Shown in pieces: positions 14,177-22,165 of a DNA stretch of 37,602 bases. How positions within the stretch are numbered: the stretch's first letter is position 1; each line of letters starts with the position of its first letter. Below the pieces are notes generated by a model. The model saw nothing but the letters and a program-made list of their open reading frames with translations, had not been told where the DNA came from and ran no database searches. Origin of the DNA: Betaproteobacteria bacterium (GTDB lineage Bacteria; Pseudomonadota; Gammaproteobacteria; Burkholderiales; Casimicrobiaceae); contig JAGXBK010000014.1 of the NCBI GenBank assembly GCA_018971195.1, forward strand, positions 1 through 37,602. The letters are read 5' to 3'. Position numbers and translations under genes: made by a program.

Positions 14177-14392
14177 GGTCAGTCGTGGCGGCAGGGCGCG
14201 AACACCCCTGCCAGCGGAGGATTTCAGATGCTTTGCAGAGTAATGGATGACGCGTGTTTTGCCAATCGAAACCTCGATTCCATGCGCCGTCCTGTTGCGC
14301 GTTCGTTGCCAAGACGCGCGCGCATGGACGGATTGTCTCCAAACGGCGACATTTCGACATGCTTGCCGCCGAAAGACCGTCGTCGGAAGAGC

Positions 14393-16421: not shown

Positions 16422-16922
16422 TTACGTCCGTCCGCGGCGCTGGTAGGTCACGTAGTCGTAGCCGAATCCGTCGGCTGCGTCGAGGCGATGGTGTTCGCGC
16501 GCCGCCTCCGCCCAGCGTGCTCGGTCCAGCGACGGAAACACGGCATCGCCTTCGAACACGCGGGCGATCTCGGTGATGTACGCTGTCTGGGCGATCGGCA
16601 GCGCGAGCCGGTACAGTTCGGCGCCGCCGATGCAGAACGCGGGCTCGGGAAGCTCGACGCGGGCGAGCGCATCGGTGAGCGATCCTGCGACGAATGCGCC
16701 TTCTGCTTTCAGGCCGGGTTGCCGGCTGACGACGATGTTCTGGCGCCGCGGCAGCGCTCGTCCGAGCGAGTCCCAGGTGCGTCGTCCCATGATGACCGCA
16801 TGCCCCGTGGTCAGCGCGCGGAAATGTCGCAGGTCATCGGGGAGCCGCCACGGAAGCGCACCGCCGCGCCCGATCACGCCGTTGCTCGCGACGGCGGCGA
16901 CCAGTGCGAGGGCCGGCCTCAT
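16422..16922 (-). CDS. folA: Dihydrofolate reductase
   Basis: A 166-aa cytoplasmic enzyme that reduces dihydrofolate to tetrahydrofolate with NADPH. It has LALVAAVASNGVIGRGGALPWRLPDDLRHF, with the substrate-binding acidic residue in PDDL, then GHAVIMGRRTWDSLG and RQNIVVSR (NADPH site), and CIGGAELYRLALP. The start is ATG at 16922, with GGAA 7-8 nt upstream. Another ATG 21 bp earlier has no ribosome site. It feeds the same cycle as thyA, found 5 kb away on the same strand. It is divergent from glrK, with promoter elements that appear to overlap. Confidence 0.96.
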   Translation of the reverse strand: MRPALALVAAVASNGVIGRGGALPWRLPDDLRHFRALTTGHAVIMGRRTWDSLGRALPRRQNIVVSRQPGLKAEGAFVAGSLTDALARVELPEPAFCIGGAELYRLALPIAQTAYITEIARVFEGDAVFPSLDRARWAEAAREHHRLDAADGFGYDYVTYQRRGRT

Positions 16923-17017
16923 CGAAAGTTCCGCGCAGCGCATCCATCGGAGCGCGGCGCGAATCCGGGGGCGCGCGGTGAGCGCCGGACGAGCGTTCGC
17001 GCGGAAGGCGGGAATGT

Positions 17018-17058: not shown

Positions 17059-18540
17059 GTGTACTACCCGCGCTCGTTCCTCAAGTTCATCCTCCTCGGC
17101 TTCCTGCTCGTCAGCCTGCCGCTGGTGTACGCGCTCGCCGAGCTGATCCTGTCGATCGACCGGCTCGAGTCGCAGGGCCGGCAGGAGGTCATCCAGGCGG
17201 CCCAGGCTGGACGCACGAGTCGCCTCCTCTACGAGCAGACGACGACGCTCGAGCGGATCGCGCGCCAGCACCTGATCCTCGAGGACAGCGCGCTGCTCGA
17301 CGAATACGCACGATTGCGGCAGGATTTCCGCCACACGACGCGCCAGCTCGCCGCGCTTCCGCTCGAGCCCGGCCAGCTCGTCGCGCTCGACCAGCTGGCC
17401 CAACAGGAAAGCCAGCTGCACAAGCTGCTGATCGCGCCTCAGCGCAGCCCGGAGATCGCGACCCAGATCGCCGACGGCTATGCGAAGCTCGTCGACGGCG
17501 CGCAGTCGATGCTGGCGGCCAGCAACCAGCTGACCCAGCGCGCGATCGATCGCCTGCAGGAGACGGCGACGCAGGGGCGCGAGAAGTGGATCTACGTGGG
17601 GCTCGCGACGGTCGGGATCGCCATCGCCCTCGCCATCGTGTTCGCGACCCTGATCGCGCGCCCGATCCGGCAGCTGGACCTCGCGGTGCGGCGCATGGGC
17701 CGTGCCGACTTCACCCACGCGATCGAGGTGTCCGGGCCGCAGGATCTGCGCTACCTGGGGCAGCGCCTCGAGTGGCTGCGTGCGCGGCTGGCGGAGCTCG
17801 AGCAGCAGCAGACGCGCTTCCTGCGCCACGTCTCGCACGAGCTCAAGACCCCGCTCACCGCGGTCCGCGAAGGGGCCGAGCTCCTGCGCGACGACGTCGG
17901 CGGCAAGCTGACGCCCGAGCAGCGCGACATCGTACGCATCGTCCGCGACAACACGCTGTCGCTGCAGAAGCTGATCGAGAACCTGCTCGCCTATCACCAG
18001 ACGCGTGCGATGGAGCCGGCGACGCTCGGGCCGGTCGCCCTGTCCGACGTCGTGAGCCGCGTGATCAAGGAGCAGAAGCTCGCGGCGCTCGGCCGGATGG
18101 TCAGCTTCGAGACCCACATGCTCCCGGTGCTGGTGGTGGGCGATGCGGAGAAGCTGCGCACCGTCGTCGATAACCTGGTGTCGAACGCGATCAAGTATTC
18201 GCCGCGCTCGGGAACGATACGCATCGACGTCGCGGCCACGAATGGCGACGCCGTGCTCGACGTCGTCGACGAAGGTCCCGGGGTCTCCCCCGAGGACCGG
18301 AACCGGATCTTCGACTCGTTCTATCAGGGGCCCGCGCCGGCGGACGGGCGCATCAAGGGCTCGGGGCTCGGGCTCGCGATCGCCCGGGAATACGCGATTG
18401 CCCACGGTGGCCGCATCGAGGTCACCGGGCGCGACGACGGCCGGAGCGGGGCATGGTTCAAGCTCTCGCTGCCGCTGGCTGTGCACAACGCGGCATCCGC
18501 GGCGCGCGACACGACGGCGCTGCTGGTGGAAGGCAAATGA
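17059..18540 (+). CDS. glrK: GlrK/QseE-like sensor histidine kinase
   Basis: A 493-aa inner-membrane sensor kinase. TM1 spans about residues 8-30 and TM2 about 178-199, enclosing a helical periplasmic domain of some 145 residues. A HAMP linker follows (ARPIRQLDLAVRRMG). The dimerisation domain has RHVSHELKTPLTAVREG with phospho-acceptor H260. The ATPase domain has the N box (DNLVSNAIKYSP, 371-382), G1 (DEGPGVS, 404-410) and G2 (GSGLGLA, 434-440). FLRHVSHELKTPLTA and the short helical sensor match the GlrK/QseE group. The assignment rests mainly on the next two genes, a QseG-like lipoprotein and a GlrR-like activator, in enterobacterial order. The start is GTG at 17059 with only a weak ribosome site. 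The stop overlaps the next start (ATGA). The signal sensed cannot be read from the sequence. Confidence 0.88.
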   Translation: MYYPRSFLKFILLGFLLVSLPLVYALAELILSIDRLESQGRQEVIQAAQAGRTSRLLYEQTTTLERIARQHLILEDSALLDEYARLRQDFRHTTRQLAALPLEPGQLVALDQLAQQESQLHKLLIAPQRSPEIATQIADGYAKLVDGAQSMLAASNQLTQRAIDRLQETATQGREKWIYVGLATVGIAIALAIVFATLIARPIRQLDLAVRRMGRADFTHAIEVSGPQDLRYLGQRLEWLRARLAELEQQQTRFLRHVSHELKTPLTAVREGAELLRDDVGGKLTPEQRDIVRIVRDNTLSLQKLIENLLAYHQTRAMEPATLGPVALSDVVSRVIKEQKLAALGRMVSFETHMLPVLVVGDAEKLRTVVDNLVSNAIKYSPRSGTIRIDVAATNGDAVLDVVDEGPGVSPEDRNRIFDSFYQGPAPADGRIKGSGLGLAIAREYAIAHGGRIEVTGRDDGRSGAWFKLSLPLAVHNAASAARDTTALLVEGK

Positions 18541-19352
18541 TCCTGCGGCACCTGATTGGGGGCATCTGCGTCGCAGCCATCCTCGGCGGGTGCGCGATCA
18601 AGGGCACCCCGATCCTCGAGCCGGGCCAGGTCTTCGTACCCGATGTCGGGCCGCCGGTGCCCACGTCGCCGCCGCTGGTGGAGTCCCCGCCGCTGGAGCC
18701 GGTGCCCCCGCCCGCCCCTGAGCAAGCGGCGCCGGCGTCCTCGCCAGCCGCGGCGACCCCGTCCGCCGCGTCGCCTGCGCCGGCATCCGCGTCGGCTGGG
18801 ACGCCCGCCATGCCGATTGCGGGGGTTCCAGCGCCATCGGAGGCGGGCAACGCGGAGGCTGCGTCGAGCCCAGGCTCCGCGCCGCGCGTCCAGGGCGCCG
18901 CGGCGGCGCCGACCGAGCCGACCGAGGACCAGCAGCTGCTGCGCCTGCTGGGCGATCTCCAGCGCTACGGGACGCTGCAGCCGGACGAGCTGAAGCACGA
19001 GATCGCGCAGGCGACCGCCGCGCTCGGCAGGGACCACAGCGACGTGAACCGCCTGCGCCTTGCCGTGCTGTATACGATGCTGCGAACCTCGCCGCAGGAC
19101 GATCAGCGTGCGCTGCAGCTGCTCGAGGTCGTGTCGCGCGCGCCGACCGCCGCGCCGGCCGTGCGCTACCTTGCCGCGGTGCTGCAGGCCCAGGTCATCG
19201 AGCGTCAGCGCGCGGTGAAGACCGAGCAGCAGAAAGGCGATGCCGCCATCCAGAAGCTCGAGGCGCTGCGCGCGATGGAGCAGAGCCTGTTCCGCGATCG
19301 CGTCCGCTCCGGTGGGGACGGCGGTGGCGGCGGAGGCGGCAGCGGCCGCTGA
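18537..19352 (+). CDS. qseG: QseG-like outer-membrane lipoprotein
   Basis: A 271-aa predicted lipoprotein. The signal peptide ends in a lipobox (ILGGC, acylated C19). Residues 25 to about 130 are a low-complexity Pro/Ala/Ser-rich tether. From about residue 130 there is a helical domain (EDQQLLRLLGDLQRYGTL, then LGRDHSDVNRLRLAVLYTML). A charged coiled-coil-like stretch and a Gly-rich tail (GGDGGGGGGGSG) end the protein. In E. coli QseG sits between glrK and glrR and activates the kinase from the outer membrane. Position, lipobox and C-terminal coil support the same role here, but sequence similarity by eye is modest. ATG at 18537 overlaps the glrK stop, so the two are translationally coupled. 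Confidence 0.75.
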   Translation: MILRHLIGGICVAAILGGCAIKGTPILEPGQVFVPDVGPPVPTSPPLVESPPLEPVPPPAPEQAAPASSPAAATPSAASPAPASASAGTPAMPIAGVPAPSEAGNAEAASSPGSAPRVQGAAAAPTEPTEDQQLLRLLGDLQRYGTLQPDELKHEIAQATAALGRDHSDVNRLRLAVLYTMLRTSPQDDQRALQLLEVVSRAPTAAPAVRYLAAVLQAQVIERQRAVKTEQQKGDAAIQKLEALRAMEQSLFRDRVRSGGDGGGGGGGSGR

Positions 19353-19422: not shown

Positions 19423-20778
19423 ATGAATCCAGGCGAAATCCTGCTGGTCGACGACGATCCCGACCTGCTGAAGCTCATCAGCCTGCGGCTGACTTCCGCG
19501 GGTTACCGCGTCCGCACGGCGGACTGCGGCGAGACTGCGCTCGCGGCGATCGCAGTCCAGCGTCCGGCGGTCGTGATCACCGACCTCCGGATGCCGGGAA
19601 TCGACGGCCTGCAGCTCTTCGAGGCGATCCACCGCCAGCACGCGGCACTGCCGGTGATCATCCTGACCGCGCACGGAACCATCCCCGACGCGGTCAGCGC
19701 GACGCAGCGCGGCGTGTTCGGCTATCTGACCAAGCCGTTCGACAGCCAGGACCTGTTGCAGAAAGTGGCTGCCGCGCTCGAGCTTTCGGGCGGCGAGCCG
19801 GCAGGGGGCGACAGCAAGGGAGGCGAATGGCGCGCCGGAATCATCACGCGCAGCCCGCGGATGGAAGATCTGTTGCGGCAGGCGCGACTCGTCGCGGATT
19901 CGGATGCCAGCGTGCTGATCTTCGGGGAATCCGGAACCGGGAAGGAGCTGCTCGCGCGCGCCATCCACCAGGCCAGCCGCCGGGCCACCAAGCCTTTCGT
20001 TGCCGTCAACTGCGGCGCGATTCCCGGCGATCTGCTGGAGTCCGAGCTCTTCGGCCACGCGCGAGGCGCGTTCACTGGCGCGGTGCAGGCGCACAAGGGG
20101 CTGTTCCAGGCCGCCGACGGCGGGACACTGTTCCTGGACGAAATCGGCGACATGCCGCTCCCCCTGCAGGTGAAGCTCCTGCGCGTGCTGCAGGAGGGCG
20201 AGGTGCGCCCGGTGGGTTCGACCCAGTCGATCCCCGTCGATGTCAGGGTGGTCTCGGCCACGCATCGCGACCTCGACTCCGAGCGTGCGCATGGCCACTT
20301 TCGCGAGGACCTGTTCTATCGCCTCAACGTGGTGTCGCTCAAGCTTCCGCCGTTGTCGGAGCGGCGCGAGGACATCCCGTTGCTCGCGGTCCACATTCTG
20401 CGCAACCTCGGCGAGCGCTACCGCAAGTCCGCGTCGACGCTCGCGCCCGACGCGATGGCGCTGCTGGTCGCGGCGCCATGGCCCGGGAACATTCGCCAGC
20501 TCATCAACCTGCTCGAGCAGGCGGTCGCGCTCTCCCCGACCCCGGTCATCCCCGCAACGCTGGTCCAGGCAGCGCTCAAGGAAGACGCTGCGGCGCTCGT
20601 TCCGTTCGAGGAAGCCCGCAAGACCTTCGAGCGGGATTACCTCGTCCGGCTGCTCAAGATCACCGGCGGAAACGTCACCCAGGCTGCGCAGCTCGCCAAG
20701 CGCAATCGCACCGAGTTCTACAAGCTCCTGCAGCGCCATCGCCTGGAGCCTTCGATGTTCAAGGAAGCGAAGGCGTGA
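19423..20778 (+). CDS. glrR: GlrR/QseF-like sigma-54-dependent response regulator
   Basis: A 451-aa cytoplasmic transcription activator. The receiver domain (1-120) has the acidic pocket at D10-D12, phospho-acceptor D54 in ITDLRMPG and K104 in YLTKPF. The AAA+ domain has Walker A GESGTGKE (168-175), the sigma-54 contact loop GAFTGA (215-220) and Walker B TLFLDEIGD (235-243). The C-terminal Fis-type helix-turn-helix is NVTQAAQLAKRNRTEFYKLLQRH (split here as NVTQAAQLAK and RNRTEFYKLL), as in GlrR. ATG at 19423 follows AAGGAAAG at good spacing. It is the third gene of the glrK-qseG-glrR set. In enterobacteria GlrR activates the sRNA gene glmY. Here two exact GlrR-type sites and a sigma-54 promoter lie directly downstream. 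Confidence 0.93.
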   Translation: MNPGEILLVDDDPDLLKLISLRLTSAGYRVRTADCGETALAAIAVQRPAVVITDLRMPGIDGLQLFEAIHRQHAALPVIILTAHGTIPDAVSATQRGVFGYLTKPFDSQDLLQKVAAALELSGGEPAGGDSKGGEWRAGIITRSPRMEDLLRQARLVADSDASVLIFGESGTGKELLARAIHQASRRATKPFVAVNCGAIPGDLLESELFGHARGAFTGAVQAHKGLFQAADGGTLFLDEIGDMPLPLQVKLLRVLQEGEVRPVGSTQSIPVDVRVVSATHRDLDSERAHGHFREDLFYRLNVVSLKLPPLSERREDIPLLAVHILRNLGERYRKSASTLAPDAMALLVAAPWPGNIRQLINLLEQAVALSPTPVIPATLVQAALKEDAAALVPFEEARKTFERDYLVRLLKITGGNVTQAAQLAKRNRTEFYKLLQRHRLEPSMFKEAKA

Positions 20779-20840
20779 GCCACCGGTCGGCGAAGACTGG
20801 AAACATTCCCGACGCGCGAATTACGCACTGCAGCATCGAT

Positions 20841-20858
20841 TGTCGTTGGTGAGCGACA
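20841..20858. promoter_or_regulatory. GlrR-type binding site 1
   Basis: Exact TGTC-N10-GACA, the palindromic motif bound by GlrR upstream of glmY in enterobacteria. Its centre is about 208 bp upstream of the predicted sigma-54 start point, a normal distance for an enhancer. Confidence 0.7.
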
Positions 20859-20873
20859 TCGTTTCTCGCGTCC

Positions 20874-20886
20874 TTTCAACACCTTA
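20874..20886 (+). promoter_or_regulatory. Possible IHF site
   Basis: TTTCAACACCTTA differs from the IHF consensus WATCAA-N4-TTR at one position (second base T for A). It lies between the two GlrR-type sites. IHF commonly bends DNA at sigma-54 promoters. One-mismatch hits are frequent by chance, so support is weak. Confidence 0.3.
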
Positions 20887-20905
20887 ACGAATCTGTCATT
20901 CTGGA

Positions 20906-20923
20906 TGTCGGTGCGCCGCGACA
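20906..20923. promoter_or_regulatory. GlrR-type binding site 2
   Basis: A second exact TGTC-N10-GACA, centred 65 bp after site 1 (close to a whole number of helical turns) and about 143 bp upstream of the predicted start point. Two exact copies of an 8-base spaced palindrome in about 250 bp are very unlikely by chance. Confidence 0.72.
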
Positions 20924-21031
20924 AAGCTTCGCTGCACTGCGGAGGCGCGCATGCGCCGGCTGTCGCGCCGGTGCACCGTTCGCCCTCTCGAAATCCCCGC
21001 AAGTCGCGCAATCGCATCGTCGGTGAGCTCA

Positions 21032-21047
21032 TGGCACGATGGTTGCT
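21032..21047 (+). promoter_or_regulatory. Sigma-54 promoter, full consensus
   Basis: TGGCACG-N4-TTGCT matches the -24/-12 consensus of RpoN promoters at every conserved base, with the GG and GC correctly 10 bp apart. Transcription should start near 21058-21059. It faces the 52-codon gene and lies downstream of the GlrR-type sites. A partial inverted repeat (GAAGAGGTCT at 21049-21058 and AGACCATCTTC at 21072-21082) straddles the start point. Confidence 0.85.
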
Positions 21048-21097
21048 TGAAGAGGTCTACCAACCGATCGCAGACCATCTTCGTAAAGAACACCGAC

Positions 21098-21256
21098 ATG
21101 GACACGTATTCGCCCGAACTCGCCAAGCTGTTGCACGAGGCGCGGGCCATGCAGCCGGGCGGCGCCAAGGCCGAACGGGACGACGAAAAGCGCGAGCAGG
21201 AAGCTGCGCTCGAGGAGCTCGCCGAGCGGATCAGCGCCGCGCGCAGCATCGTCTGA
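21098..21256 (+). CDS. Small acidic protein encoded by the sigma-54 unit (52 aa)
   Basis: A 52-aa frame beginning MDTYSPELAKLLHEARAM and continuing as a highly charged, probably helical stretch rich in Glu, Ala and Arg. There is no signal peptide, membrane segment or cysteine, so it would be cytoplasmic. Third codon positions are almost all G or C, like genuine genes in this genome. The start codon is about 39 nt after the predicted sigma-54 start point. The ribosome site is poor (TAAAGAA, 8-9 nt upstream), which leaves open that translation is weak or controlled, or that the transcript acts as RNA. I do not recognise the protein. It is the only gene between the promoter and the terminator at 21337. 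Confidence 0.6.
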   Translation: MDTYSPELAKLLHEARAMQPGGAKAERDDEKREQEAALEELAERISAARSIV

Positions 21257-21267
21257 ATTTACGCGTC

Positions 21268-21318
21268 GCCGGGGCGGCTTGATCCCCCGGCACGCTGGCA
21301 AGGCGCGCGTCGCGCGCC
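21268..21318 (+). ncRNA. Two strong hairpins in the 3' part of the sigma-54 transcript
   Basis: Hairpin A: GCCGGGG (21268-21274) pairs with CCCCGGC (21285-21291). Hairpin B: GGCGCGCG (21302-21309) is followed by its exact complement (21311-21318), a near-perfect palindrome with one central base. Together with the terminator they give about 100 nt of structured RNA after the small gene. This would suit a 3'-derived or dual-function small RNA. A role is inferred, not shown. Confidence 0.45.
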
Positions 21319-21336
21319 AAGCTATCGGAACCCCCT

Positions 21337-21365
21337 TGCCCGCCTCCTCCTGCGGGCATTTTTTT
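21337..21365 (+). terminator. Intrinsic terminator of the sigma-54 unit
   Basis: TGCCCGC and GCGGGCA arms (7 bp, 8-nt loop) are followed by seven T residues on the plus strand. On the minus strand, which would serve thyA, there is no T-tract. The predicted transcript from the sigma-54 promoter is therefore about 307 nt. Confidence 0.85.
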
Positions 21366-21370
21366 GCCCA

Positions 21371-22165
21371 TCAGACGGCGACCGGCGCCTTGATCGCGGG
21401 GTGCGACGCGTAGCCGGAGATCTCGAAATCCTCGAACGCGTAATCGAAAATCGTCGCCGGCCTGCGGCGCAGGACGAGGCGCGGCAGCGGCAGCGGCACC
21501 CGGGCGAGCTGGACCTCGACCTGCTCGAGGTGGTTGAGATACAGGTGACAGTCGCCACCCGTCCAGACGAAATCCCCGACGTCGAGATCGCACTGCTGGG
21601 CCAGCATGTGGGTCAACAGTGCATACGAGGCGATGTTGAACGGGACGCCGAGGAAGACGTCGGCACTGCGCTGGTAGAGCTGGCACGACAGGCGCCCCTC
21701 GGCGACGTAGAACTGGAACAGCAGGTGGCAAGGTGGCAGCTTCATCCGCGGGATGTCGGCGACGTTCCAGGCCGAGACGATCAGGCGCCGCGAATTTGGG
21801 TTGCGGCGCAACTCGGCGACCAGGTTCGCCACCTGGTCGATGTGCGTCCCGTCGGGGCCCGGCCAGTTGCGCCACTGGAAGCCGTAGATGGGGCCGAGGT
21901 CGCCGTTGGCGTCGGCCCATTCGTCCCAGATCGTCACCCCTGCCGCCTGCAGCGAGCGAACGTTGGTCTCGCCGCGCAGGAACCACAGGAGCTCGTGGAT
22001 GATGGAGCGCGTGTGCAGCTTCTTGGTCGTCACCAGCGGAAAACCGTGGGCGAGGTCGAAGCGCATCTGGTAGCCGAGGACCGACAGCGTCCCGGTTCCG
22101 GTGCGGTCGTCCTTGCGATGCCCGTGGTCGCGCACATGGCGCATGAAGTCGAGATAGGCCTGCAT
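21371..22165 (-). CDS. thyA: Thymidylate synthase
   Basis: A 264-aa cytoplasmic enzyme, the same length as E. coli ThyA. It makes dTMP from dUMP with methylenetetrahydrofolate and yields dihydrofolate for FolA. Catalytic C146 lies in [25 protein letters not shown] and GETNVRSL near the N-terminus, IYGFQWRNW and [20 protein letters not shown] (dUMP and folate binding) are all intact. The frame ends VAV, as usual. ATG at 22165 is the family start. It is 48 bp downstream of aroC on the same strand. Confidence 0.98.

Follow-up and report, generated by a model that had tools for sequence, protein, structure and literature searches.

The window, the whole stretch of 37,602 nucleotides that we analysed, probably carries a GlrR-activated, sigma-54-dependent unit in which one transcript gives two products, a microprotein and a trans-acting RNA directed against Shine–Dalgarno (SD) sequences. 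The predicted promoter architecture, the coding frame and the conservation at the RNA level are supported by comparison; from these we infer the binding of GlrR and IHF, transcription, processing and targets.

The window holds the gene order kinase, putative lipoprotein, regulator, all on the forward strand. The gene for a GlrK-like sensor histidine kinase (17059–18540) encodes HAMP, HisKA and HATPase_c domains and is named by its position before glrR, as no NCBIfam model scores at or above its cut-off. The putative QseG-like lipoprotein (18537–19352) is assigned by its place between kinase and regulator and by a lipobox-like LGGC, Pfam and NCBIfam searches having given no match, and the third gene (19423–20778) encodes a GlrR-like sigma-54 response regulator with Response_reg and Sigma54_activat domains. 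About 590 bases separate the end of glrR from thyA (21371–22165, reverse strand), which is convergent with the unit, and the sites, promoter, 52-codon frame and terminator all lie inside them; their coordinates in an earlier, sequence-only reading proved right to the base. UAS1 (20841–20858) and UAS2 (20906–20923), for which no strand is assigned, are exact, conserved TGTC-N10-GACA sites placed 65 bp apart, start to start, and an IHF-like site, TTTCAACACCTTA (20874–20886, forward strand), lies between them with one mismatch. Farther along the forward strand come an exact sigma-54 -24/-12 promoter match, TGGCACGATGGTTGCT (21032–21047), with a predicted start near 21058; the gene for a microprotein of 52 residues (21098–21256); and a conserved RNA 3′ end (21324–21367), recognised by a covariance model match, the terminator and a count of loops among relatives. 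The 5′ part of this end contains CCCCCUU (CCCCCTT in the DNA, 21331–21337), and the terminator stem-loop (21337–21358), followed by seven T (21359–21365), has an anti-SD loop, CTCCTCCT in DNA and CUCCUCCU in RNA (21344–21351). The glrK–glrR block and the unit are flanked by a dihydrofolate reductase gene (16422–16943, reverse strand) and by thyA, also on the reverse strand.

In the mechanism that we propose, the kinase would relay a signal to GlrR, probably modulated by the lipoprotein; phosphorylated GlrR would occupy both UAS, IHF would bend the DNA between UAS1 and UAS2, and GlrR would remodel the sigma-54 polymerase at 21032–21047. A single transcript of ~308 nt (about 21058–21365) would code for the microprotein of ~52 residues, probably helical, and end in a 3′ hairpin whose loop CUCCUCC, together with the preceding CCCCCUU, is predicted to be complementary to SD sequences. 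The transcript, or a 3′ fragment processed from it, would most likely repress the translation of selected mRNAs in trans.

The microprotein and the conserved RNA 3′ end

The sequence-only reading did not recognise what the unit encodes. Its kind can now be named, as a family-restricted microprotein joined to a putative anti-SD RNA end. Of the 64 family genomes, 47 have homologues of the ~52-residue protein (profile from 35 proteins, E up to 0.01), with the matches in G021, G033 and G070 being partial, and a sample of 300 genomes of the order contained eight with a microprotein match, all inside the window's family. None of the 35 members reaches the cut-off of any Pfam model, and the window's own microprotein has no match in NCBIfam. 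Mismatches in the C-terminal block occur at rates of 0.21, 0.22 and 0.52 for the first, second and third codon position, and the middle of the protein is unconstrained, with dN/dS about 1.0. Judged by this comparison, which backs the coding nature of the frame, the product is a new microprotein restricted to the family; a single-sequence AlphaFold model gives it helices at residues 6–18 and 23–51 (pLDDT 82, pTM 0.42).

Given a conserved protein, one could suppose that the microprotein alone matters, GlrR and sigma-54 driving a small-protein gene whose 3′ end is merely a terminator. The spread of the frame through the family and its coding constraint agree with this, and so does G017 (L014/L139, G017:C21), which keeps the UAS pair, promoter and ORF but lacks the conserved RNA end and has a thyA of another type next, in the same direction. 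We nevertheless consider this explanation unlikely, as several observations on the RNA end run against it. None of the 11 g6 genomes has the microprotein, and in seven of them the promoter is followed by the RNA end without an ORF. The loop and the C-run are more conserved than a terminator requires, CCTCC being present in the terminator loop of 36 of the 37 non-g2 loci. In genus g2, where the unit is sited away from glrR, the terminator loop is plain, and a hairpin just 3′ of the frame carries TTTCCTCCCCCGGTC without exception in all 15 sequences, which come from 15 of the 17 g2 genomes and form 10 distinct rows; both-sided changes affect 5 of its 12 pairs, a number reached by 2 of 500 shuffles and by none of the slid versions, so the hairpin covaries beneath a fixed loop. 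That the RNA end is retained where the ORF is missing, and that the g2 hairpin covaries, together suggest that the RNA itself has a function. A tblastn search of the g2 stretches L173–L176 found no thyA, which argues that the RNA end there is not retained as a terminator shared with that gene. Against this reading, the stability of the full transcript does not exceed that of its shuffles (z −0.40).

The covariance model used to trace the end, R2, was made from 18 RNA ends, the window's included, with the stem set by hand, and replaced R1, whose automatic structure was poor. At E up to 0.01 it matches 43 of the 64 family genomes, generally with a single match per genome, and thus does not capture a general terminator style of these genomes; the matches in G065 and G083, like the second matches in G024, G032 and G086, correspond to something other than the unit.

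An RNA function could also be exerted in cis, the C-rich loop pairing within its transcript, with the leader or elsewhere, and controlling translation or stability. Both ends do share one transcript, and GAGG or AGGAGG precedes the start codon in some relatives; however, the SD in front of the window's start codon is weak by eye, with only TAAAGA nearby, and the RNA end survives where the ORF is absent, so that we give action in cis little credence. Repression of translation in trans appears likeliest, since CUCCUCC and CCCCCUU can pair with SD sequences. Direct pairing with the glmS start region was attempted for 11 genomes, in one of which the start was not found; in all 10 that could be scored, the duplexes were no better than those of shuffles. 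The count of genes with a perfect SD (AGGAGGAG-N2-10-ATG) in the window's own genome, 17 against 6 in the control, is uninformative.

The promoter region and its probable tie to GlrR

Exact TGTC-N10-GACA sites occur three times in the window against 0.42 expected, a background of the same magnitude as the 0.004 per 250 bp estimated in the sequence-only reading. Across the 3.17 Mb genome, single sites number 37, compared with 11 for the reversed control, and a pair with 53–78 bp from start to start occurs once, compared with none in the control. The third site of the window, at 14334–14351, has no -24/-12 match nearby and is probably a chance occurrence. Although TGGCACGATGGTTGCT is the window's sole exact -24/-12 match, the promoter alone is weak evidence, given that two matches with one mismatch were found and 0.91 expected. 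The same applies to the IHF-like site, which by itself is not significant (three sites with one mismatch in the window against 3.09 expected) and whose assignment to IHF is based on the motif.

It is the joint conservation of these elements that argues for a working promoter. A GlrR search over 61 genomes, the window's own and 60 relatives, gave a match in 42 of them; among the best 30 loci, which were read, the UAS pair follows glrR in 27 and the promoter as well in 26, and the sequence of L024 stops short of the promoter position. The pair is missing beside glrR in L036 (G012), where the unit lies ~5 kb away, and in L039 and L041 (G022 and G033), both of genus g2; G028, a third g2 genome, likewise has no unit beside glrR. 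In G022 the unit is found ~31 kb along the same contig, and in G033 and G028 on a different contig. A wider set covered 54 of the 64 family genomes, picked by a GlrR, protein or RNA match and not by the sites, and left out ten (G013, G021, G023, G031, G065, G068, G080, G082, G083 and G084) that had no match, a fragment, or a match other than the unit. The UAS pair precedes the unit in 52 of the 54 loci, including G027 and G029, for which the automatic scan had picked the wrong pair or strand, and its spacing is 65 bp in 41 loci, 66 in 8, 64 in 2 and 67 in 1. The promoter is present in 51 of these 52, and the IHF-like site, with 0–1 mismatch at one fixed offset, in 38. The two loci without the pair are G078, represented by a truncated locus only, and G070, the one exception among the 15 g2 loci, 14 of which keep the pair although the unit is away from glrR. 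The sequence-only reading had suggested looking for the sites and promoter in relatives as a check on the GlrR/sigma-54 link that it drew; with sites, spacing and promoter conserved in relatives that have glrR, the link holds up. Downstream of a second GlrR-like gene in a family member, at L151 (G024:C7), are a sigma-54 promoter and the gene for a PAS histidine kinase.

The best NCBIfam model for the window's regulator is GlrR (NF011695), at 644 bits against a curated cut-off of 763, and it is 212 bits ahead of the runner-up, NtrC, at 432 bits. Four of 14 gammaproteobacterial GlrR loci have a similar module 2.2–3.1 kb before glrR, upstream of glrK, and none was found in 47 loci of other sigma-54 activators (38–47% identity to the query), scanned on both strands with the same criteria. 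Presence in GlrR loci and absence from the control loci indicate that the module follows GlrR. A chance origin of sites and promoter, unconnected with GlrR, is extremely improbable: single sites are common and chance alone would yield one-mismatch -24/-12 matches, but the pair, its spacing and the promoter are conserved jointly, the unit has been relocated as a block in g2, and the control loci are devoid of the module. The sequence thus contains what is characteristic of a GlrR-dependent sigma-54 promoter, namely paired sites, an IHF-like site, a -24/-12 element and association with GlrR. Predicted control of the adjoining unit by GlrR and sigma-54 is strongly supported by these comparisons, and we infer that GlrR, the sites and the target unit form the complete circuit envisaged in the sequence-only reading. 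In Hahella (L084), a UAS pair comes after glrR, but no promoter is present at the threshold used.

Relation to known regulatory systems

Most of what is known about GlrR concerns GlmY and rpoE of enterobacteria. A 2011 survey of sigma-54 regulation includes QseF-like activators and, in the part of its text considered here, leaves a betaproteobacterial target unnamed (PMC3162934). The sequence-only reading placed the enterobacterial glmY elsewhere on the chromosome and saw the adjoining target as a contrast with enterobacteria. It was mistaken on both counts: according to extracts of two papers, glmY lies immediately upstream of qseEGF in conserved synteny (PMC6075780, PMC8745638), and adjacency is the known arrangement; in the window the unit occupies the opposite flank of the operon. 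What is new is the place and content of the unit, not its adjacency to the regulator.

As those extracts describe GlrR/QseF and GlmY of Enterobacteriaceae, the likeness to what is predicted for the window's unit extends to the activator type, IHF, a sigma-54 promoter, an RNA product, TGT-N12-ACA/TGTC-N10-GACA sites and a target adjoining the regulator operon (PMC6075780, PMC8745638); E. coli glmY is described with three sites plus IHF (PMC6075780). Unlike GlmY, the unit lies after glrR and not before glrK, and no -24/-12 match occurs upstream of glrK in the window; it also encodes a protein, has an anti-SD loop and shows no sign of direct glmS pairing. GlmY itself acts on glmS through RapZ and GlmZ. 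Identity of the RNA with GlmY was rejected because of its place after glrR and because an Rfam search of 20700–21500 found no GlmY (E up to 5).

A further known RNA is S17 of Bordetella, which is described as using C/U-rich single-stranded sites against ribosome-binding regions and whose long form, with a 32-codon ORF, is processed to a short 3′ RNA (PMC11722255). S17 and RF02278, the Betaproteobacteria toxic sRNA, resemble the predicted RNA of the unit in being betaproteobacterial RNAs with C/U-rich sites against ribosome-binding regions and an ORF in the longer RNA; unlike the unit, S17 is described with a sigma-A promoter (PMC11722255). The window's RNA was not accepted as a member of RF02278 or as S17, there being no match in 20700–21500 or anywhere in its own genome and the RF02278-type sequences compared being different. 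By analogy with S17, the likeliest action of the RNA would be repression in trans at ribosome-binding regions. S17/RF02278-like RNA does occur in genus relatives (L129, L131, L132), at other loci and below the Rfam cut-off.

The loops of the CcsR RNAs are C-rich and resemble the window's loop. Within the alphaproteobacterial CIN1 locus, the DUF1127 protein CcaF1 is described as co-transcribed with the CcsR sRNAs, which are matured by RNase E, and, as predicted for the window's unit, this places a small protein in a common transcript with a downstream RNA (PMC10253847). Unlike the unit, CIN1 has an RpoH promoter and belongs to another bacterial class; a CIN1, or cuckoo RNA, locus was discarded as a candidate, DUF1127 not being among the Pfam matches (E up to 1) of the 35 microprotein members. 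CbrB is the sigma-54 activator of CrcZ, which serves as an Hfq/Crc decoy. The gene for this regulatory RNA of Pseudomonas is reported as a unit of its own downstream of the CbrAB two-component operon, and the window's unit is similarly a separate unit with a putative RNA gene 3′ of a two-component operon (PMC8871633); activator and RNA are different. Among the matches listed in the openly licensed PMC literature, we recognised no report of the unit.

The predicted switch and its outputs beyond the family

Among named betaproteobacterial loci with a GlrR of at least 60% identity, the pair and promoter come directly after glrR in 12 of 13, the exception being Propionivibrio (L069), where the module is found only elsewhere in the locus. 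Behind such promoters, in loci not all of which have the full UAS pair, we counted 20 products: seven BON-domain proteins, three MdoG, two glycine-zipper proteins, one EF-hand protein, one kinase and six without a family. Hydrogenophaga, Rubrivivax and Roseateles (L049, L054, L072) have a GlrR-type module before mdoG, a periplasmic glucan gene. An order-wide sample outside the family, with 115 GlrR-like loci from 110 genomes, contained the full module in 56 loci, a good promoter only in 25 and neither in 34.

A CCTCC loop was present in 14 of 200 terminators on the same strand versus 1 of 144 on the opposite strand (Fisher p = 0.0055, with related genomes taken as independent), and a second scan found 15 on the same strand and none on the opposite one. 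From the 15 outside anti-SD terminator matches we dropped L330 (no promoter), L386 (an intervening globin-like ORF), L348 and L408 (hairpin at 319 within an ORF starting at 271). The terminator is retained in 11 of the 115 outside GlrR loci, each with a sigma-54 promoter, in families f11, f12, f19, f24, f26 and f48; a stricter first-terminator test accepted eight outside loci, and the loop UUUCCUCCCUUAU is identical in six loci of f24 and f19. All 11 terminators come after a gene of one membrane-protein type, and a profile built from the same 11 proteins matches 33 of the 115 loci, 22 of these 33 without the CCTCC loop. The membrane-protein type after glrR (L299, L301, L303, L305, L307, L310, L311, L318, L329, L337, L344) shows a Cys-x2-Cys-Gly motif and a conserved NGS-like C-terminal end.

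R2 matches outside the family come from 13 genomes; six of these were scanned over ~0.8–1.0 kb upstream of the match, and no UAS or promoter was found in any of them. In two of the six, the match proved to be preceded by a GlrR gene, at 1.2 kb in G153, where the promoter was just outside the scanned distance, and at 2.9 kb in G192. At L319 and L220 (G192:C33), the R2-like anti-SD terminator shares the strand of glrR and follows it at ~2.9 kb, past the scanned stretch.

The RNA end is not universal, but it may predate the microprotein. Taken order-wide, we tentatively suggest that the GlrR enhancer is fixed and the protein output exchangeable, and that the 3′ anti-SD hairpin arose early, has often been retained and is the betaproteobacterial counterpart of GlmY, with the microprotein mRNA carrying it in the window's family and the membrane-protein mRNA in the six outside families, and with the hairpin standing alone in g6; the full UAS pair is present in only 3 of the 11 outside cases, which makes this scenario less probable. 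For betaproteobacteria, the unit represents a predicted direct output of GlrR, and it adds a candidate small RNA with a directly testable loop as well as a new family of microproteins. Many genera appear to have conserved the enhancer, whereas the product encoded behind it varies (BON-domain, MdoG, glycine-zipper and other proteins), which would allow a study of how a conserved regulatory circuit exchanges its outputs.
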